Source: Cyclina sinensis
Taxonomy: Eukaryota; Mollusca; Bivalvia; Venerida; Veneridae
Length of the DNA: 64,000 nucleotides
Direction of reading: 5' to 3'
Assembly: GCA_012932295.1 (NCBI GenBank)
Contig: JAAONU010000001.1
Location: forward strand, 58,253,693 to 58,317,692
Shown here: one piece after another, positions 822 to 35,726 of the stretch
Layout: every line of letters begins with the position of its first letter
Numbering within the stretch: position 1 is the first letter of the stretch
Notes under the pieces: generated by a model
Databases searched by the model: none
Told to the model about the DNA's origin: nothing
The model's input: only the letters and a program-made list of their open reading frames with translations
Position numbers and translations under genes: made by a program

Positions 822-986
822 ATGTTCCGGAAACAAACGAAGACAATCGATTCATACAATGTTTTCAAGTTTCTACGTAGGATGTTACTAAGGTATATGA
901 TGCCCTGGAACGCATTTTGCACGACTGTACTTATTGCTTTTTGGATAATTACGACTTATATTCATATTCTAGCCGAGATTGACGCG
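822..986 (+). CDS. Stealth copy A, coding exon 1: start codon and signal anchor
   Basis: Encodes residues 1-55. The ATG at 822 is followed by a basic stretch (FLRRMLLRY) and one hydrophobic segment (about 29-51), the layout of a type II signal anchor. The donor is gcg|gtaagt. An upstream in-frame extension has only a GTG and no coding-like features, so this ATG is preferred. Confidence 0.72.
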
Positions 987-3900
987 GTAAGTAAATTTAC
1001 CAGCATACAAGAGGGTTATTTTGTAGTGTAATACTTGTAGATATCTGCACAAATGTGCTCATATGTATTTTGAGCGAGTTCATACTTCGTAAAATAGGTA
1101 TTGCCGAAAAATTGATATTTATAAATACGCAAAGAAGGCACATGCATATTAACCAAATATAATGTACATTCAATAAATATTAATTTTAATTTTGTTTGAG
1201 TATTGTTATGGCTTGAATGAAAAAGACACCAACAAAGAAATGCACTTCTGAAGAAAACACCGGTGTATCACTTTTTTCCATATTTCCAAATACTTTTCTA
1301 TACATTCACATGAGTATTGCACAAGATTTTACCTAATAACTTGATAATTCTTTCTTGCCAAAGAGCAGACTGTACGTTAAAGTGTGAACTTGTCAATCCT
1401 ATAGATACCTGATGTTTCTGTCAAAAACTTAAATGATGCAAGTGGAAACATTTTATGATAGGCTTAGACAGAGTAAGGGTTGCAAGGCTTTTTAACTTAT
1501 TTCACAATTCGTAATCGCTGCTGTTATAATGGGAAGAATGTTTGGGTATGAAAAGTTGTGAACACAGGTCTGTTCAGCACATGAGATCTCCGTCCAAGTA
1601 GTTTCTTTTCGTTCCAAAATCTCATGAAATAATATTTTGCAAAAGAACCACACAAATGTTTTGTGATATATATTTCTAATTGAGTATAAGGCTGTTTTAT
1701 GTCTGAGTGATTTTAGAAAATTTCAAGGGCACTGGAAATTGACACCGATTTAAGACATGTCATATAAAAGGCTGTTAAAGTTCGAGAGGTAAGCATACCT
1801 GGGATATTTCTTCCAGGAGTTGCAATGGCATTTATCTTGGAGATATATGAATGATAAGCATGAAAATTGAAAATAGATAAATAAAATGGTTACATTTGCT
1901 CTGTTACCTGTAAATAATTTGTCTTCGGAAAAGTATAACAATGTGTGAATTTCATTAAAATGATACAATTTAAATTATATTATCTTTATGTCATTCGCGA
2001 TATTATTTTCAAAGTCGATCTCTCTTCGAGTATTTATTTTTAGAATTGAAACAAAATGTACCTCATGAAACTTGCTTTTATTATGAAAAGGTCAGTGACA
2101 TAATGGAGACCTTATAATAATCATTCGCAAAACAGTTTCAGTTATTTTGTATCTATTTTTACTATAACCATGCCTGAGTGTGACTGTTTACAGAATTATC
2201 ATTTTGTTTTTAACTCTTTCATTGGGATTTTTTATTTTCTCATATTTCATACTTATGCAAACAAAACTCCTTATTTCAGATTGAGGAATATAATCAAAGT
2301 TCTTACGGAACTGATATCCGCAATTCCCTTAACAAGATAGATACGTAAGTAAAGTTTGTTTTCATCTACCTTTACCTTTTAACAGAAAATGATTTTACAT
2401 AGAGAAATTCCAGTTATAGTTGTGGAGAACGCATCAAAACCAAGTATACCTGATTTGTCAATGAAAGACGTCAGGCTTAACATTTTAAAAAAAATATTTT
2501 TATCAGAAAATATGTTACCCCATGGGTCACTTAGTAATTTCTTTCTTTTTATACTGTAAATTTAAAGGTTGTGTGGCACAGTAGACCGTTGTTCTTCACA
2601 TAGGTTTTCCTCTGTTTTCAAACCGTTTAGAAGCATACAGTTATTTCTAGAAGTAATTTCACTAAACTTTTTTTTTTAAAAAAAAGTATTTTCAAGCTAT
2701 CATCTATAATAGAAGTTTTAAATTTAGGAGAGGATTTATTTCAATGGCGTAATCTCTGCTTACGTTCTTTTGATTCGAGCTTAGGTGAGAGAGAACACGG
2801 GGTGGGGATAGTCAATCTGTGTAATTTGCAAAAATTGCTTGAAATATGAAATGAAACATAAAACTTATGACAGTGGGCAAACTGACCAAGACGCATGTCA
2901 CTCCTAAAAATGTTGAAATCACAATAAATACATCAGAAGAAGCAAAGAGGTCTTTAACGTGTAGACATGAAAATATTCCTTCCAGTGTAGTTGTTATGAT
3001 TAATGATTGGAGCACTCAAACAAGATAATTTGACTATGTTATTTCACTCACTGAAACTAAACAATTAAAGTGAAAGGATTGATAGTACTGTACATGTATT
3101 TATTGTTTTAAGTAGATATTTTTACTACATTTCAAGGTGATTTTAACCATTCTTGTAACTTTAAAAATAAATATTATGCCATCATTTAACTTACAAATTG
3201 ATAAAGACAACTGTTATAGGGGCAATAAAGGGGAAAGGGAAGACAGTAAAGGACAGACCTATCGTTACTGAGGAAACAGCTGACTTACAAACAAATCTGA
3301 CAATAAGCTGACAACAGATAATACTTCTTTTTGCCTTTTAACATATGACTTTATTGAGGTACTTTGCAATCTATAGCTTCGTATATGAATATGTGTATCG
3401 CTTTGCAGTTTTTCCACTACTATGCATGGTATTTATTATTTACAGTGTTCATACACAAGACATAGACATCGTGTACACATGGGTGAATGGTTCGGATGAA
3501 AAGTTCAAGAAGGATTTGGAGGATTATATTGCACTGATTAACAAACCTCGGTATGTGATATTCAGTCATATTGCCTTTTCCACAATGTGTTGCATAGTGG
3601 TTTTAAAATAAGAGTGCAAGTCTATTTTGCTTTTATTGTTTTTTCGATTTGTTTTCTAGGTCGAAGATATTTTATTTGTGTAAAATTTATGAAAATTAAA
3701 TTAGAAAAAAAAGATAGGTTCTGTGCACGAATCCATACTTCATGATACTTGTGCTACAGTATTTGGTATTTATATGTAAATTATACATTATTGTATTACG
3801 AAGAAAAATGTTTTAAAAAATCAAATATGTGTAATGGAAAAAATAGAAAGCTATTCAAATCCAGGTATGACTGGGACCCATCCTAACAAATGTAGATTCG

Positions 3901-6900
3901 CCAAAATGATTTAAATTTTCTTGTTGACTTGCAAGATAGATATCAGGTCTCAAGTAAAATTACTTCTGTGACTGTTTGATAATTTGTGCATGGTAAGGGC
4001 GTGGTAATCTTCATTAGACTGAGATATGTCCTAGCGTTAAACAGACGCCTAGTCATACTGAGGTATGACTTTAAATTTTATTAACTTTGAGACTTTTTGA
4101 TAGTTTGCATGATAATTACAGGGCAGATGTCCTAGCATTAAACAGATACCTAGACTATGGGACCATGAAATACTCATTGAGATCAGTGGAGAAGTACGCC
4201 AACTGGATCAGGCATATATTCCTCGTGACTAATGGACAGATACCAGACTGGCTTAACAGGGAAAATCCCCGTATCTCTGTGGTCACTCATGAGGTAATAT
4301 AAATTTATGTCGCTTATCTAGTTTTTAGTCTGTGCACAATATTTCTAACGATCTACAAAACTTAAATTATGCATTACTGTTATATAGGGAAGTTTTGATG
4401 AAATCTGTTTTCACAATCTCTTATCATCTTACATATTCTTTTTCTCAAACAATGAATTCACTCTCACTTTGAATATGTTTCAAGGAATGTGTGTATCTGA
4501 ATAGTATGTATACCTGAATAGAGTGTGCATCTGAATAGTGTGTGTACTTGAATAGTATGTGTACCTGAATAGTGTGTATACTTGAATAGTGTGTGTATCT
4601 AGATAGTATGTGTATACCAGAATACTGCTGAATAGTGTGAGTACCTGAATGGTGTGTGCATCTGAATAGTGTGTGTATCTGAATAGTGTGTATACCTGAA
4701 TAGTGTGAGTACCTGAATAGTGTGTGCATCTAAATAGTGTGTGTATCTGAATAATGTGTATACCTGAATAGTGTGTGCATCTGAATAGTGTGTGTATCTG
4801 AATAGTGGGTATACCCTGAATAGTGTGTGCATCTCAATAGTGCGTGTATCTGAAAAGTGTGTATACATGAATAGTGTGAGTACCTGAATAGTGTGTGCAT
4901 CTGGATAGTATGTGTATCTGAATAGATTGTATACCTGAATAGTGTGTGTACCTAAATAGTGTGTATACCTGAATAGTGTGTGCATCTGAAAAGTGTGTGT
5001 CTCTGAATAGTGTGTATACCTGAATAGTGTGAGTACCTGAAAAAGTGTGTGCATCTGGATAGTACGTGCATCTGAATAGTGTGTGAACTTAAAAAGTGTG
5101 TGTACCTGAATAGTGTGTATACCTGAATAGTATGTGTATACCAGAATAGTGTGTGTATCTGAATAGTGTGTATACCTGAATAGTGTGTGTACCTAAATAG
5201 TGTGTGTACATGAATAGTGTGTATAACTGAATAGTTTGTGTATACCAGAATAGTGTGTGTATCTATATAGTGGGTATACCTGAATAGTGTTTGTATCTGA
5301 ACAGTGTGTGTACCTGAAAACTGTGCGTATCTGAACAGTGTGTGAACCTGAATACTGTGTATACCAGAATAGTGTGTGTACCTGAATACTGTGTGTTCCT
5401 GAATAGTGTTAGCATCTGAACAGTGTGTGAACCTGAATACTGTGTATACCAGAATAGTGTGTACCTGAATACTGTGTGTTCCTGAATAGTGTTATCATCT
5501 GAAAAGTGTGTGTACCTGAATACTGTGTGTATCAGAACAGTGTGTGTACCTGAATAGTGTGTACCTGAATAGTATGTGTACTTGAATAGTATGTGTACCT
5601 GAATAGTATGTGTATCTGAATAGTGTGTGTACCTGAATAGTATGTGTACCTGAATAGTGTGTGTTTCTTAATAGTATGTGTACTTGAATAGTATGTGTAC
5701 CTGAATAGTATGTGTATCTAAATAGTGTGTGTACCTGAATAGTATGTGTATCTGAACAGTGTGTGTACCTGAATACTGTGTGTACTTGGATAGTGTGTAT
5801 ATGAACCTTGTGTGTACCTGAATAGTATGTGTATCTGAACAGTGTGTGTACCTGAATAGTGTGTGCACCTGAAAAGTGTGTGAACCTGAATAGTAAGTGT
5901 ATACCGGATAAGTGTGTGTACCTGAATAGCTCTACATAAAATGAAGGTGCCTTGAGAGAATATAACCAAAATAATAAAATAAACCATTGTTTTAAAATAG
6001 CAGTGTAACGAACTATGAGTTTTAACAAGAAAATTTTTCTTCAAAAATTAAAGTTTTAAACAGAAACATGTAAAAAGATAGTGACTTGTAAAGTTCCTCC
6101 TGCCCTTAACACAACTTTATTTTATAATTTTACGTATGGATTACAGGAGTTATTTTCCAACAAGAGTCACCTGCCAACGTTTGCGTCACCAGCCATAGAG
6201 TGCCACATTCATAAGATCAAAGGACTTTCCGAACATTTTATATACATGAATGATGATCTAATACTAACGTCCAGAGTAGATTTGTCGCATTTCCTTAATG
6301 AAAATGGTAGTTATAAGGTACTTGTTGAATTACATTAATTCAGTTGAATTTTTATCTTCTGTTTAATATGATAAATAAGTTTGAATAATTCAATATCAAA
6401 TGGCTGTGAACTTTTTCAAAGTTTTTGACGGATATGCATAGAATAGAAAGAAAAGGTATCATTTATGATACATTAATCTGAAAATTCCGTAAATTATTCG
6501 TAAATTATTCGTAATATATTAGCAACATCTGTTTGATTTATGTAAGAAGTTTTTGTTTTCTACCAAACAAATATATATAGCCATCATGTCTAGCAGAATA
6601 CATAGTCTTTGGTTTTTGATTGACTTGTTATCAAATCAGTATTGGGAGTTATGCAGTGCAGCCCTTGCAAAGCACATCTACCAAGTCAATGAACAGCCAT
6701 AGATCTGTTAGATAAAATCAGTCCTTCAAAATATAGATTGCTAGGCTGTGACACATAGATGCTACAAACATGTACGTGCGTGAGCATATAGCTATCACAA
6801 CCACAACAAGAGGCTTGACAACATAGTCTAGTAATTAAAACTGAATATCGCAAAATATTGTAAAACATTAAGATACAATATATACCATATTAAATATGCT

Positions 6901-9900
6901 GTTTATGATAGGTATATACTTAAACTAGTACAAAAAAACAACATTTATTAAGAAAGTTTGTTTAGCAAATTCAAGAGATATATAATGGAGAAATATCCTA
7001 CATACAAATATTGAAACTCAGGCAAAATGCAGATGTTGCAATCTTCTGCCATCATTGATTAAATGTTTTCTACTGAACTGAAAAACAAAACTTCATATTG
7101 AGTAAAACAGTAAACAAGTGTCAGCTGGGATAAAGTGCTTTGTAACGACTTATCTACAGGCATTGTATATCAACATGCGACATATGGAAATAACATTCAT
7201 GTATTTTAAAGATGATAGAATCAAGTTTTATGACATAGCTTCAATGACAAATATTTCTCCATATAGAAAAATTGTACGTGATCAATGACATATGTTATAA
7301 AGAAATTGTATTTCAAGTCTTTCGTTGTAGAGATTTGATGTATATAGAAAAGTTGTATGTCATGTCAGGAATGACAGGGATTTCTGAATATAGAAAAAAC
7401 TGTATGTCATAGCATATCTTGCATGAAAGAGATATCTGCATATAGAAAAAATGTATGTCATTTCTTCCCTGATAGATGTTTCTACAAATAGAGAAATCGT
7501 ATTGCATGTCATCTATGAAAGATATTTTTAGTTCAAATCTGTTAGGATTCAAATACATATCGAGTAGTTTTGACTTGGCTAAATGTGTTCAAATATCTGT
7601 TGTAAAAGAGTCCACATAAATTAAAATGTCTTTGATAACATATCGGCATTTAAATAAGATTGCGTAATTGTAATATTTGACGTATTTAAATCTTTTGTCA
7701 AATTCAAGCTTAGATTTGTACACGAAAAGTTAGAACGATGTAACAAAATGTGTGGATCTAACAATGTCAACAATGGTATTTGCGAGTCTAACTGCAGTAC
7801 CGGAAGTTGTGAATGGGATGGAGAAGACTGTATAGGTCAAAAGGTCGCCCCTTACACGGAAGATGACGTGAATTTCATGTTTGACAGCTGGATCGGATCA
7901 ATGATGCACACCCATTTTCTCTTCAATAAAGCATTCGGACCTATTAACAGATACATACCGGAACATGGACCACACTTGATGAACAAGAATATCATCCGAC
8001 AATTTAGTTTGATGTAAGAATTTCTGTTTGATCTGATCAAATTATGGAATGTTCTAGATTTGCAACATACCCAGATACTTGTTACATTGCCGATTACCAC
8101 GTGACTGTATAGATTCAGGCAATAAAACACAAATCTTAAAATATAGATACTAATGCAGGCAAACCGATACTGCTTACAAGAATTTAACTTAAATGGAAAA
8201 CATCTAATAAATTACATAAAGATACATATAGAAAAAATTAAATACGATTTACCAGCATCGATGTTATATATTCCTAATTACTTTAAATTTGGCTTTCCGA
8301 TAAATTGCAGGTTTCCTTTTGACTGGGATAGGACCTCATCTCACAAAATTCGAAACCACCTGTCCATCCAATACCAGTTTGCCTATAATAATTTCCTGGT
8401 AATTTTAGAAAGCATGGGAGTGAGTAACGTTAACAATGACATAGTGTAAGTAGTTAAATAGTCACAGCTAGACTTTATTGTATACAATAACTGTTTATTT
8501 CTCCAGGAAAAAAACATATCTTAGAAGTTTGAAGAACTGGAAATTATGATAAAAGACCACCCAGTCTTAAACTGATTTTGCTTTGCTTTAAATCTACTCA
8601 ATGGTTACTGGTTTCGTTTGTTTAAGAGGAACTAAGTAATGGAGTGTGTTTTGATAATTTTCCAAATTGACGTCAGATACTATATACCCTTTAAACTCTT
8701 GTGGCACTTAAATTATTGTGATATGCTCTTTTCTGCACCATACTACCTTGTCAACCCTACCCCATTCAAGCCCTCCAAAGACAAATACGTACAAGGTGAG
8801 AACCATTTCTTCTCTTTATGCCTCTCTGCACTATATTACCTTGTCCACCCTACCCCATTCCACCCCTCCCCAGACAAATACGTAAATTTTGATAACCATT
8901 TCTTCTCTTTATGCTATTCTACACTATATTACTTTGTCCACCTTACCCCATTCCACGCCTCCCCAGACAAATACGAAAATGATGATAACCATGTCTTCTC
9001 TTTATGCTATTCTGCACTATACTACCTTGTCCACCTTACCCCATTCCACCCTCCCTAATAAATTACGTAAATAGTGATAACCATTTCTTCCCTTTATGCC
9101 TCTCTGCACTATACTACTTTGTCCACCCTACCCCGTTCCTCCAATCCCCAGACAAATACGTACAAGGTGAGAACCATTTCTTCTCTTTATGCTATTCTGC
9201 ACCATACTACCATGTCCAACCTAACCCATTCCACCCCTCCCCAGACAAATACGTAAATGGAAATAACCATTTCTTCTCTTTATGCCTCTCTGCACTATAA
9301 TACTTTGTCCACCCTACCTCATTCCACCCTTCCCCAGACAAATACATAAATGGTGAGAACCATCTCTTCTCTTTATGCCTCTCTGCAGTATACTACCTTG
9401 TCCACCCTACCCCATTCCACCCTTCCCCAGACAAATACATAAATGGCGAGAACTATGTCTTCTCTTTATGCCTCTGCACTATACTACCTTGTTCACATAC
9501 CCCATGCCACCCCTCTCCCCAGACAAATACGTAAATGGTGAGAACCATGTCTTCTCTTTATGCCTCTGCAGTATACTACCTTGTCCACCCTAACCCATTT
9601 CACCCCCTCACCAGACAAATACGTAAATGGTGAGAACCATGTCTTCTCTTTATGCCTTCCTGCGCCAGATGTAGCAGAGTATATCTTAACAGAATTCACT
9701 GCCTTTAGATTAGTATGCTCAAAAAGTAATAAAACATTGAGTGTTGCTTTTTTCTTAGAGTTTTTTTTTTATCAATTTCATATTTTATGCTTACATCAGA
9801 TGGAGTAAGGAATGTTGTAACAAAGATATACTAGAGTTTGATAACAGAAGCATCAATGATAGAAAGAAACAAATAGAAGATACCAAAAGAAGGTTACTCC

Positions 9901-10533
9901 TTATGTAAGTATTAGAATATACTTATATTTACCTTAGTGTATAAGATTATCTTTGTCTGCCAGGGACTGTTAAGTTGTAACGGATATAGCATTTAATAAA
10001 GAGGTCGCGAGTCAGATGTCACCGCTCCTCCCCAACACAATAAAATCTTCAAGTGACGTCCGTTATTTGAGAAAGTGGTGTCGACAATAAATAAACTCAA
10101 GTATATTGATTCATGTACCATACGCACAGTGTTCACATACATGTGGTCTTTGCGCGCAAATTCATACCACATATATAATTTTTCTACATGTAGGCGTTTC
10201 TTATTCTGTTTTTCAAAATAGAGGAAATCCAGTTGTTTCTCTTTTCATTTACAGATATCAGTTGTTGTTTTTTATTTGAAGATATATTAAATGTTTTATT
10301 ATCTATGCAAAAATGAACTTACTAACTTATTTGACATTCTAACATATGTACAAGGTGTTATAGTAAAAGTATTTGAAGATTTTATTTACATTTTCAGTAA
10401 GCCGAATTACCTTGTAATAACAACGAAATTTATAGTGATGTTGTCTCAAGCACAGATAGAAGGTTTAACGAAAGACGTCACAGACTTCTTAGATGAGATG
10501 TTTCCGTTGCCGTCACAGTACGAAATACGATAA
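822..10533 (+). CDS. Compact Stealth-family phosphotransferase (GNPTAB-like), copy A, 452 aa, 9 exons
   Basis: Coding exons: 822-986, 2280-2344, 3446-3550, 4122-4293, 6147-6317, 7709-8013, 8311-8445, 9800-9904, 10398-10533. Joined length is 1359 nt (452 codons plus TAA) with every intron GT-AG and the frame preserved. Order: cytosolic tail; signal anchor (about 29-51); Stealth CR1 ([13 protein letters not shown], from 82); CR2 ending in the FIYMNDD motif (200-206); a Notch/LNR six-cysteine module (237-267); CR3 (IPEHGPH); CR4 (from 329). This order matches the catalytic half of human GNPTAB, which tags lysosomal enzymes with GlcNAc-1-phosphate in the Golgi, but the protein is about one third of GNPTAB length, without room for its spacer and extra C-terminal domains. 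A type II Golgi membrane phosphotransferase is inferred; the acceptor is unknown. Mariner lies just downstream; a paralog is on the opposite strand at 26-36 kb. Confidence 0.88.
2280..2344 (+). CDS. Stealth copy A, coding exon 2: stem region
   Basis: Small 65-nt exon between ttatttcag and gtaagt. It encodes a polar stem (starts IEEYNQSSYG) linking the membrane anchor to CR1. It ends two bases into a codon completed by exon 3. The paralog has a 71-nt exon at the same place with the same phase. Confidence 0.75.
3446..3550 (+). CDS. Stealth copy A, coding exon 3: CR1
   Basis: A 105-nt exon carrying the Stealth CR1 signature [13 protein letters not shown]. It is flanked by ttatttacag and gtatgt. 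The same 105-nt exon with the same phases occurs in the paralog at 31705-31809. Confidence 0.9.
4122..4293 (+). CDS. Stealth copy A, coding exon 4: first half of CR2
   Basis: 172-nt exon containing LNRYLDYGTMKYSLRSVEKY and HIFLVTNGQIPDWL, typical of the N-terminal part of Stealth CR2. Ends phase 0 at THE|gtaata. Equal in length to exon 4 of the paralog. Confidence 0.9.
4480..5930 (+). repeat. 17-bp intronic minisatellite, about 1.45 kb
   Basis: Dozens of imperfect copies of a 17-bp unit (consensus gaatagtgtgtgtacct) fill most of intron 4. Variants differ in the gt/at dinucleotides and by small indels. Because 17 is not a multiple of three, the reverse complement stays open as a 17-residue repeating peptide rich in H, T and Y, which produces spurious long frames. 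No coding role is proposed. Confidence 0.95.
6147..6317 (+). CDS. Stealth copy A, coding exon 5: catalytic second half of CR2
   Basis: 171 nt, exactly 57 codons, flanked by ggattacag and gtactt. Contains [16 protein letters not shown] and FIYMNDDLIL, the most conserved block of the Stealth/GNPTAB fold. The NDD acidic pair (residues 204-206) is intact here and altered in the paralog. Confidence 0.92.
7230..7530 (+). repeat. Degenerate ~60-bp tandem repeat in intron 5
   Basis: About five diverged units share 'catatagaaaaattgtatgtcat' like segments separated by variable text with 'atgaaagat' or similar. It is an old intronic tandem duplication. No coding meaning is seen; the rest of the intron (6318-7708) holds nothing I recognise. 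Confidence 0.6.
7709..8013 (+). CDS. Stealth copy A, coding exon 6: Notch/LNR module and CR3
   Basis: 305 nt. Six cysteines in CNKMC-x9-C-x3-C-x4-C-x6-C order (residues 237-267), with the WDGEDC calcium-site ending, identify a Lin-12/Notch repeat. It continues into FDSWIGSMMHTHFLFNK and IPEHGPHLMNK, corresponding to CR3. The acceptor at 7707-7708 was chosen over a nearer AG because it gives the same phase and the same 305-nt length as the paralog exon (28067-28371). Confidence 0.88.
8311..8445 (+). CDS. Stealth copy A, coding exon 7: CR4
   Basis: 135 nt. Begins with [18 protein letters not shown], equivalent to the GNPTAB segment that follows its CR3 histidine motif. The donor gt|gtaagt at 8445 keeps the frame into exon 8. 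The same region of the paralog is 9 nt shorter. Confidence 0.87.
8735..9660 (+). repeat. ~92-bp intronic minisatellite, about ten units
   Basis: Units built around ccccagacaaatacgtaa, then 'ttcttctctttatgc' and a pyrimidine-rich 'ttgtccaccctacccca' tract recur about every 92 bp. Upper-strand pyrimidine richness is strong. The array fills most of intron 7, between exons ending 8445 and starting 9800. Confidence 0.93.
9800..9904 (+). CDS. Stealth copy A, coding exon 8: charged C-terminal segment
   Basis: 105 nt encoding WSKECCNKD and LEFDNRSINDRKKQIEDTKR, aligning with the paralog block [14 protein letters not shown]. Flanked by cttacatcag and gtaagt. The function of this segment is not known to me. 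Confidence 0.82.
10398..10533 (+). CDS. Stealth copy A, terminal exon
   Basis: 136 nt ending in TAA at 10531-10533. Encodes KPNYLVITTKF and VTDFLDEMFPLPSQYEIR, matching the last exon of the paralog ([17 protein letters not shown]). No AATAAA lies between the stop and the mariner element at 10700. Confidence 0.87.
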
Positions 10534-10699
10534 AATAACGTCATTATTGATATAGGATTCTTTCAATTCACACTCGATGGCCAGTCTGACATATTTATTT
10601 TGTTATTTGCATATCGTATATTGTTTATTGTATGAAAGCTACTATTTCTAAAGACCACATAGAAGTATGAATATTCACATTTTTAATTAATAGTATATA

Positions 10700-10728
10700 C
10701 GAGGGGTGATTCAAAAGTTCGCGGAATT
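10700..10728 (+). repeat. Mariner left terminal inverted repeat
   Basis: 29 bp beginning cgaggggtgattcaaaag, identical to the reverse complement of 12529-12557. Preceded by TA. Transposase binding site by family analogy. Confidence 0.95.
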
Positions 10729-11055
10729 TATCTCTAAATCATTTATTTTTTCACCGAATCACATTAAATTTCGCATAAATATAATTCAACGTATTTTAAC
10801 TAACATTTTCGTTTAGTTTATGGAATATGTGTAACCGGAAGAATATAAATGGTCTCCATAGCAACCACGGTTAGGTGACTTGAAGCAGGCCAAAATATTT
10901 CGTTTTACTAATTCACTTCAGACGATAGTATGTTTTCAAATGTTGCTCAATTTTGGCGCGAACGTAACTGACGTTAGAATGACGTGTTGACGTCATTTCC
11001 TATAATTTTGATTACATTACGTTGAACCGTTACTCCACAGCAGCGAGTTGTCGCC

Positions 11056-12347
11056 ATGTCTTCAACTTCTTCCGCGACGTCAACAAGTGAATTGGAGCTA
11101 CGCGCAGTTGTGAAATTTTGTGTTGGACTCAAACTTACACCAGTTGAGACGTTGAATCAAATTAAAAACTCGCATACATTACAACCTTGTGGTAAATCGT
11201 TTGTCTACAAATGGCATGAGCGATTTCGGAACGGCAGAAAATCGGTACTTGATGACGATAGAGCAGGTAGACCAGCATCCGCTATGACGACGAGCAACGC
11301 AACGTTAGTGAGAGAGCTTTTGGACAACGACCGGCGCTTAACGGTTAGGGGTATTGCAGAGGAACTCTCCCTATCGTATTCTACTGTGCAACGAATTCTT
11401 ACAGAAGAGCTAAATATGTCCAAAGTATCTGCGCGTTGGGTGCCCAGACTTCTGACTGATGAAAACAAGCAGCGGAGGTTAGAATGTTCTCAGCAATTTC
11501 TGGATCTGTACGACGCACAGGGTGACGAGTTTTTGGACAAAATCATCACGACAGACGAGACATGGTTATACCATTATGATCCAGAGTCGAAACAGCAGTC
11601 GTCCGTCTGGAAGTCACCAGACACACCTCCACCAAAAAAGGCCAGGACAACACGCAGCTGCAAAAAGGAAATGTTCATCTTCTTCATGGATAGACAAGGG
11701 CTTTTGCTTCAACACAAGGTGCGCGACGGATGTACCGTAAATGCCGACTATTATTCAAAGGTATGCCGCATTTTAGTCATACAAACGATCAACACTTATA
11801 TATTATTTTTATAACAAACTAATATTTTACAGTATGTATTGTTTCAAATAACAAAATATATAAAAATATTATTTAAAATGTGCCGCTTTTTACTTTCTTA
11901 AACTTAAATTATTTCATGTTTTCCCGTTTGTTTGTTTGACTTCAGGTGCTTAGACGCGATCTGATACAGGCTCTGCGCCGCAAGCGCCCCCTGTTGGTAC
12001 TGGATGATGTTATACTCCATCATGACAACGCTCCAGCACATCGGGCACAGAGTACAGAGTTAGAGATTTCACTGCTTGGTTTCAGCCTCTTACCACATCC
12101 GCCGTACAGCCCGGATCTAGCACCGATGGACTTTCGTCTGTTTCCAGATATGAAGAGGGAACTCAGAGGCCAGAGATTTGAAACAACATTAGAGCTACGC
12201 AATAAGGCTCGTGAAGTAATCTCTTCATTCAGTCAGGATTGGTTTAAGGTAACATTTATGCAATGGGTACAAAGGCATAGGAAGTGTGTAGCGACGGGCG
12301 GCGATTACGTCGAGAAGGTGAATCGTACGCTAGAATTTGACCGTTAG
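11056..12347 (+). CDS. Mariner transposase (DD34D), two exons, 368 aa
   Basis: Join 11056-11760 and 11946-12347. The ATG at 11056 begins a frame with an N-terminal helix-turn-helix region (VKFCVGLKLTPVET, YKWHERFRNG), the DDRAGRP linker, a second HTH (IAEELSLSYSTVQRIL), the WVPRLL motif, and the catalytic triad TTDETW, HHDNAPAH and PYSPDLAPMD. Spacing is 94 residues between the first two aspartates and 34 between the last two: classic mariner. The first frame runs into a stop after 11760, but removing a GT-AG segment 11761-11945 (aag|gtatgc ... cttcag|gtgctt) rejoins it exactly between YYSK and VLRRDL, giving 368 aa, close to the usual ~345-350. Nuclear cut-and-paste transposase, apparently intact. 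Splicing itself is inferred. Confidence 0.92.
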
Positions 12348-12520
12348 TGACGTCGACGTCGTGATGGCGTGCGTCAAGTGCCGGTCATGTATACAATTCA
12401 AATATGTACAAACGATTTATTAGTAAATGTATTTCAATGAGATTACGGCTCTGCTTTAGTATTGAGTAAACGTATCGAGTGATGTAATTTTTGTGTTTGT
12501 ATTGTCTTTTCCGTTCTAGT

Positions 12521-24370: not shown

Positions 24371-24379
24371 AGCGACACA

Positions 24380-24630: not shown

Positions 24631-24674
24631 GTCATTAGGACAGCCACAGAAGCGTTAGATGAACTCAAAAAGTA

Positions 24675-24895: not shown

Positions 24896-25807
24896 AGTGG
24901 TATTTCAAAACTAGAATAACATACCCGCATAGAGGTTGCGATTAATTTGAACAGCTGTAATTTACATATAGCAGTTCAATCCACTTCTTCCCGTGTTCTT
25001 GATCGAATCAGCAGCCACGGTTTCCTTTTCTAATTTCGACCGATTTACCCAGGTATTTTGCAATATTTTCAATATCTGGGTTAGTAAAATCGTTTAGTGT
25101 TTGGACATTATATTCTGTGGCGTATAGCTCTGTTCCGCCTACCACATTCAGTGACACAAGTACTAAACGATTCAGAGTCGTTTATACTGAATAATCGTCC
25201 AATGTCACTGACTGTCCGAACTACACATCCGACTACTAATACAGTCTATCCACAGTAAAAAGTCAAACATCATGTACTAATTTTCTTCTTAGAATTCATT
25301 CATTCGTAATAAATGTGCTCTTTGTAATGCTATTCATTTATTTCGAGCAGAAATCAAGTTTTTTTAAACAATCACGATGATAGATACATTTTGTCGCGGC
25401 ACTCGATGTTGAAATACCTTTCCTACGACATATTTTTTTTTAACAAACGACTTTTGTTTTTCTACGTTTGCAGGATATGTGAAACGGGTAAGCATGGAAG
25501 CTGGTGATATTTGCCGATTTCATCAGAGTTCAAAGACCTATATTTGTATGTAAACTACAAAACATAACGGTGTATGAATTTATTTTCAAGTATGATTTTC
25601 AAGGTTTGATATACATGTATATATATTCAAGTTCATTTAGATTTGTGACTATATAAACAAAAAGAATACATCAAACAACTCGAGCTAAAGATATGCCATA
25701 TGATAACGAGAGATGTCAAATATTGGGAGGTAAATGGTGGACAGAAAATGATTCCGAGCTAAAAAAATCTTCGCACTATTACGTCATCACTGTTTTTCTC
25801 CTTACAG

Positions 25808-25957
25808 AACACTGCCTTTCTAGTTGAAAACTTTGGCCTTACTACCAATGATGTTACTCTCACGGAAAATTCCGGAAAAGGCCAAGTTAACACGATTGAT
25901 AAGGCGCTCAATTCTTTTATAGATATACTGTTTCCCCGTCAACTATTACGAAAATAA
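25808..25957 (+). CDS. Orphan exon-like open frame, possibly a Stealth C-terminal relic
   Basis: Acceptor ctccttacag, then 50 codons to TAA. The end SFIDILFPRQLLRK weakly resembles the last exons of the two Stealth genes (DFLDEMFPLP / [10 protein letters not shown]). No upstream exon with Stealth motifs was found on the plus strand in 22.6-25.8 kb. A tiny potential exon (tttgcag|gatatg...gg|gtaagc, 25475-25488) lies upstream. Could be a relic, part of a lncRNA, or chance. Confidence 0.25.
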   Translation, partial: NTAFLVENFGLTTNDVTLTENSGKGQVNTIDKALNSFIDILFPRQLLRK

Positions 25958-26319
25958 TATCCAGATTGCACTAAGGTAAGTGTACAATTTAACAACAACA
26001 CTGTGAATGATAAGAGAGACAAGAAACACAGTAAAACACTAAAAACTGATTCAACATTATGAACACAGTTAAAACAATAATAAAACCTATTGTTTGAATA
26101 TATTATAGATCTAGACTGCTTTCATTTTGCATAGTACTCTAAGAGTGGAAATATCGGAAATTCTTAAGAAATCAGCACAGAAATCTAAAAGTCTAAAAGA
26201 AAATTTGAGTGTTATACAAACAATAAAACATTATCTTTTTTAAATTTTCACAGAAAAAAACAAAAAGGCAGTTTTCATGTATGCATAACGAGATCCCGTA
26301 ATACAAATTATGGAAATGA

Positions 26320-26452
26320 CTACATCTCAAAAGAAGATGGCATTGGATATAATCCGTCAAAGAAACTTGTCACGTCCTTTATAATCTCAGCTTTACCCTC
26401 CTCGGATAACTCCATCGTAAAACTGTTCGTAACAATAAGATACATGGCTTTC
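26320..26452 (-). CDS. Stealth copy B, terminal exon
   Basis: 133 nt: [11 protein letters not shown] and [20 protein letters not shown], then TAG at 26322-26320. Confidence 0.86.
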
Positions 26453-29400
26453 CTGTAAAAAACGCACACAGAGAGTTATAACAACAAGTAAACAGAAAAT
26501 CTACATACAAATAATAGAACATGATACATAAGGACCATCATGACGACTGAATTCACTCACCTGAATACTTTGGTTGGGGATGTGCTGTTGAGCTAACAAG
26601 CTAAATTGTTGACGACGCACGGCCCATGATAGACAACGAACAACAGGCGATCCTAAAAGTTTACTCTGAGCATTGCTCTGAGCTAAAATGGTGAAGGACG
26701 CGACTTCAAATTCTGGCTTCTAGAGTATATATAATATATTTTTTGATTTTAGCGAATGGCCTAGTTTTTGACCTGAGGTGACTCATATTCAAACTTGACC
26801 CAGATTCAAAGACAAACACCTTGGCTAAGAGTTAATGATATCTGAACTCATAATGTAGTTTCTAAACTGTTTAGATTTCCTTTGATCATTTTTTTCATCA
26901 TATGTTAAGTCTTAAAAATAACGATGCCACTCCAGAGCTCTCAGCTACATAGATAATATGTAGATATGTACATAGATAAATTCAAAAATAAATAGATTTC
27001 AATCCATTTCGAAATTTCACACTGAATAAAGTAACCTGTCTATAATTTCTTACTTTAACTTGATCTCCATTTCGACAAGTTCCATCTGTTTCTTCCTGGC
27101 TTCTCTTGAACGGTTGTCGACATTGAACTTCACCTTGTAACCAACTTTCTGACGGCTCCTTTTTTTAAAAAAGATGTCAAAGTTTATATTGTTAAACCAT
27201 TCATTTACCGTGTATCTGTTTAAAAAGATGTATAATATCAGAGATCAACATTAGCCGGAAGAGGACAAAGAAAATATAAATATGCTTAAGTTGATATAGG
27301 GACAAATACATCATACGTTTAACCCATTTATTCGAAATGGATTATTCTTTCCTCGTCAGTTGGACGAGTCTATTTTCAGTTAAAAGACCCTGATCAGACG
27401 CCGGATATTGAAACCGGGCAAGTTTACTTCTTAATTCCAGTAATTTTACATAATCAAAAAACTTATACTGTTCACATTTGTTAAAACTGATAGGTCGCTA
27501 TCAACTAATAAAAAATGACTTCAAAGTCAGAACCAATTTTTATGACCAAAACTGATGGGCAATTACCCCGTTCCCATCTCTCTTCTGTTCTAAACATGTT
27601 AACTTTCGCTCGATTTCATTGACATTTAGGCGTCGGTTAAAAACGAAATAAATAATACAAATAATAATACCTCATGTCTGTCTTTACATCAATCTGTCCA
27701 CTTTCCTTTAAATACTGGATATAAACAAACTGAAACTGAACTGAAAGATGATGTCTTATCTTGTGAGAGGATGTTCTGTCCCACTCTTCTGGAAATCTGA
27801 AATGATTTGTTACACGACTAAGAAAACGTCAATTTTCTGTACATGAAATGAAATTGAAACGAATTTGATTATTTTGTCATTGAAAACTGCTTAAAGAAAG
27901 GCATTTATTTGGTAGAAGTTTATTAATATTATATACAATGATTGCCGAGAACGTATTACAGAATGATTATTTTTTCCTGCTAATAATTCTTGGCAAATGC
28001 TGTACAAATAATGTACACTCAACTGCGCAAATTCGATTTTAAAAAATCCTGTAAATCTTGTAATACCTTTTGTTAAGTTTGTATATGATGCTTTTATCAA
28101 ACAAATGAGCACCGTGTTCCGCTATGTATCTATCCTTTGGTCCGTAGTGTTTGTTCAGTATAAAATATGTATGCATAACAGAGCCCATCCAGCTGTCAAA
28201 CATAAAGTCCTTGTCCGTGTCCGTGTATGGGGGAACTTTTTGGCCAATACAATCATCCCCGTCCCATTCACAACTCGCAGTACTACAGTTCTTGTCACAT
28301 ATACCATTGTTGACCATAACCACGTTACAGTGTTTGTTACACCTATATGGCCTCTCCGCCATGAATCGGATCTGCAAAGGATCGAAGGAAAAATAAAAGT
28401 CATTCCTTAAAATGACAAGAGGCAAAGGGACAGAAAGAGGTACGTTTCTCCTAGTTAAAACAATTTACTTACATTTCCGTAAAGCAGAGATACGATACAT
28501 TTTAAAAAATACCAGTCCGTCTGGGATTCAAACTGATACTGTTTCAGTCATTAGCTTGAATAAACGACGCTCTAGACAAAAGGGCAAAAACTCAATTCCC
28601 TTACGCAGATTTTAGACATTGAATCTACACATATCAAAGCAGATGTGCACTCGTCTGACCCAATTAAAAGCGAAGTAAATAACCGCAAAGTATTTTTAAA
28701 TACAGATAGAAGTTTATTGTAAGTGTCGTGTTAGTGTTCTGTTGAAGGAACCATGTAAATGAGACCTACTACGAAAAACAGTCTTAAAGTCAATAAAGTT
28801 TCTTCATTTTGAAATATTGATAGATGAGTATGTAATTATATCATATAAAACCATTTCGAGCTATTGATGTAAAGAATGTCCAAATCAAGTGCCTCATTTT
28901 GAAATGTTAATATATGTACTGTATCAATCATCTACCTCATTTTGAAATGTTAATATATGTACTGTATCAATCATCTACCTCATTTTGAAATGTTAATATA
29001 TGTACTGTATCAATCATCTACCTCATTTTGAAATGTTAATATATGTACTGTATCAATCATCTACCTCATTTTGAAATATTCATAAAAGGACCACGGTGCA
29101 AATATAAATGCAAATAAAAGTATGCAACTATCATTCGAGGACGTAAAATACGTTATAGCAGAATGCAAAATTTAAAATTGCATCTCAGATACTTTGATGA
29201 TATTCGCGCTAAATAAGTGAACAAAAGCTTTGCAAGTAAAATCATTGCATTGATAACTTCCTTTCCCAGAAAACTGTCTAAGTTTGTTGTAAGCGCTAAC
29301 CTTAAAAGAAGAAACATTATGTATTCATTAGTGTACGTTCCAGTTTTCTACTATACTTAAGACATCAATTCTTAGCTTAACTTATCTTATATATATATAT

Positions 29401-32400
29401 ACATATAACAATATATCAAAGGGGTCGGGTGCAGATGTAAAACCTGTATATATGTTGAAATTATGTTTTGTTTATATTGCTCAAGTCACAACAATAAACA
29501 ACCTACTTACTTACTTGTATACACCATTTAGGAATACTGAAATAAGGACAGTGCAAAAAGAATACACCATGTCCAAAACTGTCAGATCATATTCAACATT
29601 TCTAAATATTACCATAAGGACAAGGCCAATCAAATGCACCATTTCGACAATATTAACAAAGAGACTATGCAAACATTTATTGATAAAAAGACTAAACTCA
29701 TTTATACCCAATTGCGAATCATTAATGAAAGGACCACCTTATAAATCTTATATAACAAATTCAGAAATGTTGTATTAAGAATGTGTAAAGTATACACTTC
29801 ATTTCGAAATTTTGACTAATTACCGTTCAAACAATATACTTATTTCAAAATGTAGAGAGCAAGACTTCGCCAACTGTATAGACCATTTCGAATGACTGAA
29901 GAAAATATATGCAATATTTTTAACTTTCCGAGTAAAGAACTGTTTAATTCAGACGTTAAATAATTGACGGTAAAAGTTTTTAGACAGAAAGACGTTTATC
30001 GGAGTTAGCTCGTTTTAGATCAGAAAATAAGACTATTGTGATGTATATGTAAATATGAATCATTTTCATAGCATCTAAATATGACTTTAAAGCATTCATA
30101 TCTACACACTTTCTCACTTATCCTTTTCAGATTGTACACTAAGTAACAGTTTGCAGATCAATACTACGAGTGGACATCTGGATGTCGCTGTATTCATGGT
30201 ACTACAAGACAAGTCGATAAATAAAACAAGAAGTCGTACTTATGTGTCACGCACGTACGTTGATTCTGTTGTAAAGTTTATAAAAATTATGCTTGTTTGT
30301 TGACAAGTAGGTCAACTTTGCGGTTTTTGTATAAGCTTCCAGCAGTTTTGGGTCTTTTAGGCAGTGTTTCGTTTGGTAAAATGTTACCAAAATGTTAGCA
30401 GTACCGCGGCCATATAATACTAAATGTAGCAATTGATCGTGTTTACAAGGATCAAACTGATTCCAATACTACGGTCATATAACACTAAATTTAGCAACTA
30501 GCACGTACTCGGCCGTGACTGCAGTAAAAGTAGAACTTTCTTGTAAGATAATGTTGAAATTAAAACCTTGAAGAATAAATCTCATTAATGGACGTATAAA
30601 TGATTGTGAAATGATGAAAAGTAAAATTTATTATCTGTTTAAGACTTGGGCAACCAATTGATCTACAATAACTTTTACCTTGTATTTTCCACCTATTGTA
30701 ACCAGGTCTGAGATTTCCAATTTTGATGTCAGCATTATATTGTCATTAAGATATATAAATCTTCTTGAGAGCCCAGTAATGCGATGTAGATGGCATTCTA
30801 TAGCTGGAGAAGCAAAGGTAGGTAAGTGGCTTTTGTTTGGAAATATCTCCTGAAATATACATGTATATGTTTTTTTTTAAAATATTTTCTTTTACACTTT
30901 AAAACATATAATAATTTAATGTGTAACTGATACAAAATAAAGTTCCACAACATTTACAGTCGATTTAAGTGGAAAAGTCCTAAATGCTTAGCATAAATAA
31001 TGCATTTTCATTAAAGCCAAAAAATAGCAGTTCTAATATCATTTTTCAGATATACCCACATCGAATTGATGCTCGTCTTATCTTAGTATATATATTTTTT
31101 ATCTTGACTATCTAACCATATTTACACAATAACACGAATGTGGTCAGTTCTTGATTAACTCACCTCATGTGTTACCAGTGTAAGTTTCGGGTGTTCCAGT
31201 TTCAGCCAAGTTGGTATCTGTCCGTTTGTGACCACAAATATATGTCTCACCCAATTTGCGTACATCTCAATAGACCTGAGAGAGTATTTCAGGGTCCCGA
31301 TATCAAAATATCTGTTTAACTCCATTACGCCTGAACTGAAATAAATAGGGTGTATGAATAATTTGAAATGCTGGAATTACTTTTTTATCTATTACACGAG
31401 CGACTGAAATTGGTGTATCCTTACGCCTTACTGATGCCGGCTTTTTAGCATGAATTGAATCGTAAGGCTTATGAAACGAATTTAAGGAATGTTTGTAAGA
31501 CATCTGATTTACTTTGTTTTTGAAAACAAAATGTAAAATCTTTTCTTGAGCTTTATATGATATGAAGTAGAGTTAAGCAAGCAGAAAAAGCGACCTTTAA
31601 TTTAACAATTTCTTGAACTTTTGTTTCAAATATAAGACGATTTTGTATAAGACGGTGTATTCTAGAACATAACTTGAAAGTTTTGAGTGAACAGGTACAC
31701 GTACTTGCGTCTGTTGATTGACCTCAGGTACTCGTGCAGTTGTCTATTAAACTTAGGTTCTGACCCATTTACCCACGTGTAAACGATATCAATATCCTCA
31801 TTAAGAGTCCTAAAATAAAAGAAAAAAGTCACTTATTCTTATGAACATACTGTGTTAGTTCGTAACAAAAACAAGAGTATGTGGTTGTGGGCTAACTGAG
31901 GCACCTATATAGACAAGTTGAACGTTTTTCTTAAAATTTTGTAAATTAACAACACACATTTGTACTACATAATTTTTATTTCTATTCAATACCGCAATTT
32001 TGTGTTTTAAACGACATATTTCTATTCTTAATTTATTTGTATTCTATTCTATATTCGTTTAATAGTTCTTTAATTGATAAGCGCTCCAGTGATATTCAAT
32101 CCTAAACTCATTTGCGTTCAATACAAACTGACTGTCAACAAATGTTAATTATTTATTAGTAATGAAATATTTTAAACGTTGGTACAGCACGCTAAATAAG
32201 GAATGAGGAAGAAGCGAACTTGCGTTAGATCTTGTTTCATTTTTCAATTCTCAATGAGCTTATTTATCATCGGAATTGATTATTTCATTATACCGATGCT
32301 CCCAGAGTTAGGTTATTTTAGACTTCGTGTGATAATGCTAGGAATAGGAAGCCCACTTTTCCAGAAACACTCCTTGATTTCCATGGTCACTGTATACCAA

Positions 32401-35400
32401 AAGATTTAAGTTAAATGTCTCAATCAAAAAGACAATTAAAGCAGTAAATGAAGGATCATGGGATCGAACATGCTACCCTCAGCGTTATCACTGGATACAT
32501 GATCTGTTCCTTTTTTCTCTCCCATCGAACCGATCCATCCCGACTTATGTTCGCCCTCGAGACATCGCCAAAAATAAAACCAATCACATACGAGAATAAG
32601 TGTTAGAAGCATACAAACAGCCGTGTATACTTTGTGACACAGCCTTTGACGTCATATGAAAGATTTCTGTCAAGATATATTCAAGAAACTGACTACACGT
32701 CTTTGAAAACTGTTCTAGATTAAACATAGTTTATTGATTAAATGTTTTGCATTTACAGATCGCTTGAAAGTTATATATAACGATAAATGTTGGAACGAAA
32801 GCTTGTTTTACTTACAAATCTGCGTTAGTGTGCATGTTTTCAGCGTTTATTCCTTGCTGTTCCAAATGTTTGTTATATTCATCAGCCTGAAAGAAAAGGA
32901 ATGTAGACAAAGGTTAAACGACCCTTGTGTAGAATTAACAGAGTAGGTCAAATGATTAACGACTACTGCCTCAAAGACTGCCGGTGCTGTACGCGCTTTT
33001 ACGACTTCTAAAAAAGAACTCTGGCTGATCAAATACTAAAAGAAAAAACGGTTGAAGTCTGTAATTAATCTTTAGCATTTCCTGGATAAAAAAGAAAGTT
33101 TCAACAATCTTAATTAAGTACCAGAAGTTTCCGGGAAAGATTTAATTATTTATTTATTTGTTTATTTTTTTTTTGGAGGGACGAGGAGGAGGCGGGGGGA
33201 GCAAAACAACATAACTCTCTATGACCTACGTCAACCAAAGATTCAAAACTCGATTGTAACACTTGAATGTACCTTGTAAGATCTTTGGTTTAATTTTTAC
33301 ACGTGCACATAAGTTAAGTTGTGTCTGTTACTTATATACCTGCATCTCCTCATGCCACTCACAGAAGTTCGAAGAATTCGAAATACAGCAAAACATGTCA
33401 AACCAGTGAAGGCAGTCACACAAAATTTTCATGTTCGAGTGTTTGTAAGCGTAATTACACGTTTGACTCACAAAGAAAGAATCTCACGTGTGTTTTTTTT
33501 GACATATTCACATAAGAAAAAATATGTCATATTACACACACACGAACATGTAAAACCTTAGATTAAGTCAACTTAATATAACGAAAATTACAATTTACAC
33601 ACAAAGCTTCTGTTCATTGCAAAATGAATACCAGACAATTTTCCCGGCGCCATATGTTGCAAAAAGAAAACTAGATGATTAAAAACATTAGACGCCAACA
33701 TGTTGAATTACACTCACGTTTGTTGATTGTAATTGTTATTGGCAAAATAACCACCATCTGATGCAGATGCATATTACAAAAATATGTTTGTTTCAATGAT
33801 TTGAGCAACACGAGACGTTTGGGTAGTTACAAAGAATTCGAAATTACAACTGTTAGCATGCACAATCTTAACCTTATATCAAGGAAATGATGATGTTAGA
33901 AATGATGTGGCATGCAGTGATTCAATAACGCTCAAGGGGCAATGACATTTTGAATGAATATCAAAAGAATTTGATTTCTATATAATGACCGTTATCTTTG
34001 ACCAAACCGAGAGTTTACACAGATTTATAAAGAAATAAAAAGACACAGATAATGCATAAAGGGCTTAAGGTATTAGATCCATAATACCCTTCCTCCACTC
34101 TGGAGAGTATTCAATTCCATTAATTTGTGTAGAATGGAGACATTTTCGGTGAAGAACATTGGTTCAAACCCCAATCCAGCCATTTTTCTCTAGTTTTTGG
34201 CAGTTTTACATTGTTTTGTTTTTACAATAGTAACTTTTATACAATTAAAATTTAATTTCTTTTGTTTTAAATGCATTTCAATTGTAACAAAGCTTTTCAA
34301 TAAGGTAAATTGATGAAAACTGGGTATCTGTGATTTCAGTTAAAATGTCTCTAAAACAAGACGGTAAAAATATTTGATATTTTGCCTATTTGTTAAGAAT
34401 AGTACATAAATAAATCTAATAGCTAATTTGAAGCCCTGAAGACTTATGTTAAAGTTTACGTTCATAACATCCCCTCATCAAGTTTGCTGGATAAATTGGC
34501 GTCATGTTTACAATCATATTTTGTTTCTTCTCACTTTCGGCTTTTCATTGTGTTTGCTGTTTGCTAGCAGTTAGTAGGTCTTCATATTGTGAATTATAAC
34601 ATACCAGTTAATACTTATTTTTTATGGTCAGTCTTAGAAAAACACTGTGTTTCTCTATACCTTATAAACCCATTAGGTCGGGTGAGGTTTGAAGTCAATA
34701 TTAGTCAACCTGAAACTCCCATGGTAAAAGTGTCTTATATGGTCTATATCTTGTCCTAGAATAGTATATATCTAAAAAAGGGCTCAATTCAGTGAGGGCG
34801 GACAAAATGTTTATTAGTATTTCTAACCAACCAGCCATTGTAATGGCCGTTTTATTCACAGGGAATCGCTGCGTAGGGGTTAAATGACCCTAAAGTAACT
34901 GATAAACCACACTTCTTCTGAATAATATATAAATACAAGGGAACCAACTCATCGGATTTCCTTTATAAGTCCATTTGGACACGGGTTCGCAACACTTTTC
35001 ACCTCAAGCAAAACAGCCTGCACGCGTATTCGGCGAAAACACTTGGTTCAGTTCGAAACAATGAACAAAAATGCTTCTCTCACTAGCAATGGTCTTTCTC
35101 TAAATCTCCTTAGCCTCTCGGAACAAACTACTTTTTCTGAAAGATGACGAATAGGCAACCATTGTTGTTGTTGTCTCCGAGACAGAGGTGATTTCTGATT
35201 GGTTAAAATGAACCTAGGCGAAAGATGTTGCGGACCCATGTCCAAATGGATCTACAAAGGAAATCCGATGAGTTGGTTCCCTTGTATTTATATATAAACA
35301 TGTATTCAAAGGATTTGGGAGAAATGTGGTTTATAAGTATTTGTAGGGTCAGTTAACCCCTACGTACCGATTCCCTGTGGTTTTATTAATCAAAAACTAG

Positions 35401-35726
35401 CTTGGATACTCGTGGTTTACTTTTATTGACCGGACTGTGCCGTCATTGTGACCGTGACCTTTGAACTGTCAAAATATCAGCTAATTTAATTTGCTCACGA
35501 AACTTTAGCAATATCTTTTTTAACCAGTGTCTTGAACGTAAAACATAAGTTATCCTTCGACGATACACAACAGTAACAAAATAAAAAAATGTTACTAAAA
35601 AAATTCATTTTTACTCACCGTATCCCATTCCTCCACAAAGTGAATATATAATGACACGAGTAAACATGATATCAACAGAAGTATATAAACAGCATTCCAG
35701 TTCATTAACATTTTCTGTACAGACAT
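26320..35726 (-). CDS. Compact Stealth-family phosphotransferase (GNPTAB-like), copy B, 431 aa, 9 exons
   Basis: Exons in transcript order: 35726-35619, 32886-32816, 31809-31705, 31335-31164, 30849-30679, 28371-28067, 27796-27671, 27158-27054, 26452-26320. Joined 1296 nt, all GT-AG, ending TAG. Same architecture as copy A: signal anchor (11-31), CR1 [13 protein letters not shown] (from 65), CR2, LNR (from 220) ending WDGDDC, CR3 IAEHGAH, CR4 [18 protein letters not shown]. Exon lengths 105, 172, 171, 305 and 105 equal those of copy A and all phases match, so the two arose by duplication of an already intron-bearing gene. The CR2 motif reads FIYLNDN (183-189) instead of the NDD of copy A. Predicted Golgi type II phosphotransferase; activity uncertain because of that change. 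Confidence 0.88.
26590..26705. repeat. Dispersed repeat fragment of a type I know from bivalve genomes
   Basis: Contains 'gacgacgcacgg', 'caggcgatcctaaaag' and 'actctgagcattgctctgag', then 'agctaaaa', matching in pattern a very common bivalve element (gcgatcac..agctcacc..tgagcac..gtgagctaaaa). Recognition is from memory, not a search. Located in intron 8 of Stealth copy B. Confidence 0.45.
27054..27158 (-). CDS. Stealth copy B, coding exon 8
   Basis: 105 nt: [20 protein letters not shown], matching copy A exon 8. The donor was placed at aa|gtaaga, which keeps the frame into KAMYLIV. Confidence 0.8.
27671..27796 (-). CDS. Stealth copy B, coding exon 7: CR4
   Basis: 126 nt: [20 protein letters not shown], then [13 protein letters not shown]. 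Acceptor atttcag; the split Arg codon joins exon 8. Confidence 0.87.
28067..28371 (-). CDS. Stealth copy B, coding exon 6: LNR and CR3
   Basis: 305 nt. CNKHC...[22 protein letters not shown] is a six-cysteine Notch repeat, followed by [17 protein letters not shown] and YIAEHGAH. Confidence 0.92.
28515..28625 (-). repeat. tRNA-like short repeat copy in Stealth B intron 5
   Basis: 'gtctgggattcaaactgat' is a reverse B box; 'cgctctagac' and 'attcccttacgcagattt' follow as in the copies at 15.5 and 63.2-63.6 kb. More diverged. Confidence 0.5.
28888..29085 (+). repeat. 43-bp tandem repeat, about four near-identical units
   Basis: Unit begins ctcattttgaaatgttaata and ends tcaatcatctac. Four copies are almost identical, implying recent expansion. 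Within Stealth B intron 5. Confidence 0.95.
29086..30678. other. Rest of Stealth B intron 5, nothing recognised
   Basis: AT-rich, with a short (ta)n tract near 29390. A 108-codon frame at 29452-29778 lacks motifs, splice context and a normal amino-acid mix, so it is not called as a gene. Confidence 0.4.
30679..30849 (-). CDS. Stealth copy B, coding exon 5: CR2 catalytic block with NDN
   Basis: 171 nt: [18 protein letters not shown], then [13 protein letters not shown]. The second acidic residue of the conserved NDD pair is Asn (aat). Confidence 0.9.
31164..31335 (-). CDS. Stealth copy B, coding exon 4: CR2 first half
   Basis: 172 nt: [18 protein letters not shown] and [14 protein letters not shown]. 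The more upstream of two adjacent AG acceptors (tttcag|ttcag|gcg) preserves the frame and the 172-nt length. Confidence 0.88.
31705..31809 (-). CDS. Stealth copy B, coding exon 3: CR1
   Basis: 105 nt: [18 protein letters not shown]. Acceptor ttattttag, donor gtacgt. Confidence 0.9.
32816..32886 (-). CDS. Stealth copy B, coding exon 2: stem
   Basis: 71 nt: [18 protein letters not shown]. Flanked by ctttcag and gtaagt. Ends two bases into a codon, as in copy A. Confidence 0.78.
34055..34820 (+). repeat. ~760-bp non-autonomous dispersed element, copy 1
   Basis: Matches 41071-41862 in inverse orientation over nearly its whole length, including cttaaggtatta at one end, 'actctggagagtattcaatt', 'cacttttaccatgggagttt' (reverse sense) and 'aacattttgtc' at the other. 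The left end keeps the terminal motif; the right end is degraded. Contains a tRNA B-box-like ggttcaaaccc at 34162. No open frame. Confidence 0.85.
34858..35380. repeat. Long imperfect inverted repeat (arms ~140-150 bp)
   Basis: Arm 34858-34993 pairs with 35227-35380: for example ggaaccaactcatcggattt at 34940 versus its complement near 35260-35280, and cacagggaatcg at one end versus gattccctgtgg at the other. Spacer about 233 bp. Fold-back element or palindromic MITE pair. Confidence 0.9.
35619..35726 (-). CDS. Stealth copy B, coding exon 1: start and signal anchor
   Basis: 36 codons: [18 protein letters not shown] then a long hydrophobic run to IHF and VEEWDT. Shorter cytosolic tail than copy A (about 10 versus 28 residues). 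Donor acg|gtgagt. Confidence 0.82.

Follow-up and report, generated by a model that had tools for sequence, protein, structure and literature searches.

Two convergent Stealth genes in Cyclina sinensis

We analyzed a stretch of 64,000 nucleotides from the venerid clam Cyclina sinensis (assembly GCA_012932295.1, contig JAAONU010000001.1, positions 58,253,693 to 58,317,692), referred to below as the window, which contains two genes for proteins of the Stealth family related to GNPTAB. In vertebrates, Stealth enzymes make the tag that addresses proteins to lysosomes; in bacteria, they make capsules. The two genes, called gene 1 and gene 2, are convergent and about 15.8 kb apart, and each has nine exons, GT-AG introns, and an open frame. 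The original prediction of a convergent pair of complete spliced Stealth genes encoding 452 and 431 residues therefore stands, with the 431-residue form backed by a database protein, P0001. Their parts are as follows, in window positions.

822..10533, + strand: gene 1, Stealth/GNPTAB-like protein, 452 residues
822-986, 2280-2344, 3446-3550, 4122-4293, 6147-6317, 7709-8013, 8311-8445, 9800-9904, 10398-10533, + strand: exons 1 to 9 of gene 1
6147..6317, + strand: gene 1 exon 5, carrying the NDD motif with the metal-binding Asp retained
7709..8013, + strand: gene 1 exon 6, six-Cys LNR (Lin-12/Notch repeat) followed by the first part of CR3 with the His956 equivalent
10398..10533, + strand: gene 1 last exon, CR4 equivalent, with Thr opposite human Asn1151; the protein stops directly after CR4
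35726..26320, - strand: gene 2, Stealth/GNPTAB-like protein, 431 residues
35726-35619, 32886-32816, 31809-31705, 31335-31164, 30849-30679, 28371-28067, 27796-27671, 27158-27054, 26452-26320, - strand: exons 1 to 9 of gene 2
30679..30849, - strand: gene 2 exon 5, with NDN instead of NDD at the human Asp408 position
28067..28371, - strand: gene 2 exon 6, six-Cys LNR followed by the first part of CR3 with the His956 equivalent
26320..26452, - strand: gene 2 last exon, CR4 equivalent, with Thr opposite human Asn1151; the protein stops directly after CR4

Gene 2 encodes 450 residues if exon 8 begins at 27215 and 431 residues if it begins at 27158. P0001, itself 431 residues long, matches the shorter model at 427 of 431 positions, with four differences. 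Because its longest contig measures 2,076 bases, compared with a genomic span of 9.4 kb for gene 2, we infer that this contig comes from spliced RNA or a retrocopy. With P0001 as the evidence, gene 2 is very probably transcribed, and the 450-residue protein was set aside as the main form and may occur as a splice form. For gene 1, no near-identical protein was present among the best 120 of 478, 120 of 700, and 120 of 588 matches; in alignment, the closest among the matches listed are P0003 (62% identical) and P0005 (64%).

The two proteins are 51% identical across 430 residues. Exons 3 to 6 measure 105, 172, 171, and 305 nucleotides in both genes, all intron phases are equal, and exon 8 measures 105 nucleotides in both if gene 2 uses position 27158; exons 1, 2, 7, and 9 are unequal. 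Pfam recognizes Stealth CR1, CR2, and CR3 above cut-offs and one LNR in both genes, with E-values for CR2 of 4e-43 and 7e-40 in the two genes and with gene 2 scanned in its 450-residue form. CR4 (PF17103) gave no Pfam match in either gene. Despite this miss, alignment and modeling suggest that CR4 is present in both: its P..S..E pattern is retained in the alignment of both genes, and the folds modeled for P0001 and P0003 can be superposed on human GNPTAB through residues 1184-1185, where CR4 ends. Thus, of the predicted arrangement of CR1 to CR4 with one LNR, Pfam recovers everything except CR4, which is suggested by alignment and by the predicted folds of relatives. A second LNR, the long spacer, the cleavage region, an EF-hand, and a C-terminal membrane helix were found in neither gene by Pfam, alignment, or hydrophobicity, in agreement with the proposal that these are minimal single-chain proteins that lack the large additions of GNPTAB.

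Loss of the metal-binding aspartate in gene 2

Together with the donor phosphates, Asp408, the final residue of NDD, and Asn1151 bind the catalytic metal in human GNPTAB, whose activity is abolished by the Asp408Ala change (PMC11418123). The same report proposes His956 as the base, and a study of the bacterial enzyme CpsY gives a 200- to 500-fold loss for the equivalent change, Asp324Ala (PMC10668966). Using human residue numbers, transferred by motif with the leech protein P0015 as the reference row, the alignment shows that gene 1 retains R322, E389, NDD, H956, H959, R986, and Q992. Gene 2 retains R322, E389, H956, H959, R986, and Q992 but has NDN for NDD, both in the alignment and in direct comparison with human GNPTAB, so that the metal-binding Asp present in gene 1 is missing. 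The Asn1151 position is Thr in both genes. With the metal Asp absent from gene 2 and Thr at the second ligand in both, the earlier view of both proteins as working enzymes is not supported in that form. Gene 2 is homologous to the Stealth enzymes but is not counted here among the active ones.

Position 408 is Asp in 216 of 218 homologues, many of them alpha-only pieces in which the H956, R986, and N1151 columns are unreliable, and in 50 of 51 further ones. These 269 homologues, 266 of them with Asp, were chosen by similarity to the clam proteins (the best 120 of 478, 120 of 700, and 120 of 588) and are not a random sample. The exceptions are P0001 and P0002, with Asn, and P0248, with Gly. NDN is common to gene 2 and its Mercenaria orthologue P0002, and the sequences of P0001 and P0002 make an assembly error unlikely. 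P0248, a eukaryote transcript protein, has SDG for NDD and changes at H956 and R986, and is possibly another inactive Stealth protein.

A clam-lineage Stealth clade

In a tree of 41 rows, both genes fall within one 11-row clade supported at 100/100. Of the 38 inner branches of the tree, 21 have good support and 13 fall under 80, and the bootstrap has not settled. The members of the clade are the two genes, a gene on another contig of the assembly (C15), P0001, and seven Mercenaria and Ruditapes proteins (P0002-P0007 and P0121). Gene 1 forms a group with P0003 from Ruditapes and P0005 from Mercenaria at 100/99, and gene 2 with P0001 and P0002 (Mercenaria) at 100/100. P0004 (Mercenaria) and P0121 (Ruditapes) form the sister lineage of gene 2 (97/86), with the C15 gene, P0006, and P0007 on the outer branch. 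The tree also shows that gene 2 is no less conserved than gene 1. In the sister lineage, P0004 carries SND and H956S, and P0121 carries YDD, S385F, and H956G; no P0004-type gene was seen in the 64-kb window. The database records of P0002, P0004, and P0005 report contigs of one size, as do those of P0003 and P0121, and from equal contig sizes alone we judge that these genes are probably also clustered in the genomes of Mercenaria and Ruditapes.

The second metal ligand varies across this clade. The Asn1151 position is Thr or Ser in 10 of the 11 rows, with FSD read by eye in the C15 gene, and Val in P0121, while other short forms have Gln. With such variation, Thr at this position alone need not kill activity.

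Stealth relatives elsewhere in the genome

A CR2 profile search of the assembly (902.86 Mb, 154 contigs) found at least 43 matches on six contigs, and because CR2 occurs at so many other sites the pair is not isolated. Among these matches are 23 to the second half of CR2, some with stops: 15 on contig C13 (one below cut-off), three on C10, two on C1 (the pair described here), and one each on C12, C15, and C16. The C12 gene gives matches to GNPTAB of vertebrates and of insects, and the fetched part of it, which is without the CR4 end, has two LNR segments, CR3, and EF-hand residues. The pair is therefore separate from GNPTAB, as had been proposed, since a canonical-type gene lies on C12, and in the phylogeny the two genes form part of their own clade and do not appear as GNPTAB fragments. 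Together, the C12 gene and this clade rule out that the exons of the pair are part of some longer transcript of GNPTAB.

Exons of 172 and 171 nucleotides occur at the same places in the C12 gene as in gene 1 and gene 2. Of the C13 genes, one was examined and has exons of 172, 171, 290, 135, and 102 nucleotides, and the C15 gene has exons of 172, 171, 305, 135, and 105. Because the 172/171 combination is shared by the C12 gene, that C13 gene, and the C15 gene, the match between gene 1 and gene 2 is inherited from a GNPTAB-type gene structure. The predicted coincidence of exon lengths and phases consequently holds, with the 172- and 171-nucleotide exons being a trait of the family rather than of the pair, and equal exon lengths are ruled out as a sign of recent duplication.

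Contig C13 also contains, at 34260000-34459999 (L011-L030), a tandem array of short Stealth genes from another branch, in which several copies have stops. The C13 stretch that was fetched has 11 pieces of second-half CR2; nine of them carry MNDD, and the remaining two are degraded copies, one with MNDA. The CR4 pieces seen in this array have the canonical CIND.

Other features of the window

Two large tandem arrays occupy introns of gene 1, and further coding sequence lies between and beyond the two Stealth genes.

4488-5929: tandem array in a gene 1 intron, 17-base unit, 85 copies
8732-9657: tandem array in a gene 1 intron, 93-base unit, 10 copies
11026-12347, + strand: transposase pieces (Pfam Transposase_1, HTH_32, then DDE_3), which we take to be mariner-like, between the Stealth genes
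21257-21721, - strand: open frame matching MFS/sugar-transporter proteins, between the Stealth genes
53904-57460, + strand: NACHT/NWD1-like gene, with NACHT and an NWD1-like winged helix above cut-off at 54370-55452, and downstream a second winged-helix piece and a WD40 match below cut-off

A probable enzyme and a paralogue without the usual metal site

We lean, with restrained confidence, toward a reading in which the two genes are paralogues belonging to a GNPTAB-related Stealth family of the clam lineage, with gene 1 a probable active enzyme and gene 2 retained without the usual metal site. For each protein we predict a type II topology with a single membrane pass and a lumenal GT-A catalytic core formed by CR1 to CR4, into which one LNR is inserted. 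Judging from its residues and fold, gene 1 would be a Golgi protein that uses uridine diphosphate N-acetylglucosamine (UDP-GlcNAc) as donor and transfers GlcNAc-1-phosphate onto a hydroxyl of a secretory-pathway glycan. Retention of the UDP-GlcNAc pocket, of His956 as base, and of NDD makes it most likely a GlcNAc-1-phosphate transferase. A non-lysosomal acceptor would be reasonable by analogy, since a canonical-type GNPTAB is also present in the clam and the fly phosphotransferase (PTase), with its one Notch repeat, tagged none of the hydrolases tested. For a surface glycan, the substrate suggested earlier, the analysis gave evidence neither way. In gene 2, the donor pocket and the His and Arg residues are kept and the metal Asp is lost, and ordinary metal-dependent transfer would not be expected. 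Gene 2 is most likely a non-catalytic donor- or acceptor-binding partner, or a competitor, of gene 1-like enzymes; such a retained role is suggested because the pocket is kept, the gene is intact, and it is no less conserved than gene 1. From its sequence, gene 2 is best read as a retained paralogue that lacks the usual metal site and is either a pseudoenzyme or metal-independent.

An extension of this reading, which we put forward tentatively and think rather doubtful, is that the clam-lineage clade has repeatedly turned non-catalytic, with gene 2 (NDN) and the P0004/P0121 lineage (H956 lost) kept as pseudoenzymes that would pair with or regulate an active enzyme of the gene 1 type.

The main rival, unlikely although there is a precedent, is that gene 2 is an active metal-independent transferase, in which NDN would remove the charge repulsion that the metal otherwise neutralizes. 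The analogy is with BoGT6a, which has NXN for DXD and is active without metal (PMC3961637). We find it similarly improbable that both genes encode ordinary active GlcNAc-1-phosphotransferases that tolerate the Asn and Thr changes. Their intact frames and conserved pockets, and the variability of N1151 in other short forms, fit such activity, and the fly PTase transfers GlcNAc-1-phosphate to alpha-methyl mannoside (alpha-MM) but tagged none of the hydrolases tested (PMC11418123); that paper speculates on secreted substrates. However, D408 is Asp in nearly all homologues, as counted above, and Ala at this position abolishes or cripples two characterized enzymes. That both genes are functionless, decaying duplicates is highly improbable: several C13 copies have stops, one decayed copy reads MNDA at the same motif, and the P0004/P0121 sister lineage lacks several active-site residues, but in both genes the frame is open throughout and the splice sites are clean, each has a Mercenaria orthologue and gene 1 has one in Ruditapes as well, and P0001 suggests expression of gene 2.

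Several points weigh against our preferred reading of the two genes. The Asn at position 408 could by analogy support activity, as the published changes were to Ala, and the residues at N1151, Thr or Ser in the clams and Gln in other short forms, may still bind metal. The match at Asn1151 itself comes from alignment of a stretch that Pfam does not recognize. The conservation of gene 2 is gauged from one orthologue, P0002, and from the near-identical P0001, which is perhaps from the same species. Folds were modeled for the close relatives P0001 and P0003 rather than for translations from the window, and P0005 is an isoform record without the R986 part. Finally, single-pass topology is a prediction, and around residue 405 of gene 1 there is another hydrophobic window, with a mean of 1.58.

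The Stealth family is already known, as is a single-chain layout with one Notch repeat, described in the fly (PMC11418123). What appears to be new from the sequences is the reduced size, with neither EF-hand nor C-terminal helix, the radiation within the clam lineage, and, most of all, a loss of the metal Asp that is conserved in gene 2. No description of these features or of an active/inactive phosphotransferase pair in the Stealth family, and nothing on GNPTAB in bivalves, was found in the open-licence literature; in the genome papers of Cyclina and Mercenaria, a word search of the main text returned neither 'stealth' nor 'phosphotransferase'. With an intact copy beside a retained copy that lacks the metal Asp, the clam family offers a natural experiment on the residues and domains required for the reaction, and on the role of animal Stealth proteins outside the lysosomal pathway, a question also raised by the fly enzyme.

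Comparison with known systems

The clam proteins share with human and other vertebrate GNPTAB (7s05, 9bgf) CR1 to CR3, the LNR, the UDP-GlcNAc pocket residues, the fold, and, by way of the clam's own canonical-type gene, the two exon lengths checked. They differ in having about 430-450 residues and a single LNR, in lacking the EF-hand, long spacer, cleavage region, and C-terminal membrane helix, and in the replacement of N1151 by Thr in both genes and the loss of D408 in gene 2. Drosophila PTase (7dxi) has the single-chain, one-Notch layout (PMC11418123). Two insect relatives that were aligned, P0030 and P0111, retain an EF-hand-like region and a hydrophobic C terminus, whereas the clam proteins stop directly behind CR4. 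The bacterial Stealth protein CpsY (8j2n) serves capsule polysaccharide synthesis and has the metal Asp324 (PMC10668966). BoGT6a, a metal-independent GT6 enzyme, resembles gene 2 in its GT-A fold and in an Asn in the metal motif (PMC3961637), but belongs to another family, is 12-13% identical, and has both Asp residues replaced. The bivalve 'GNPTAB-like' proteins P0002-P0007 and P0121 belong to the same 11-row clade, and among them P0002 alone shares NDN with gene 2.

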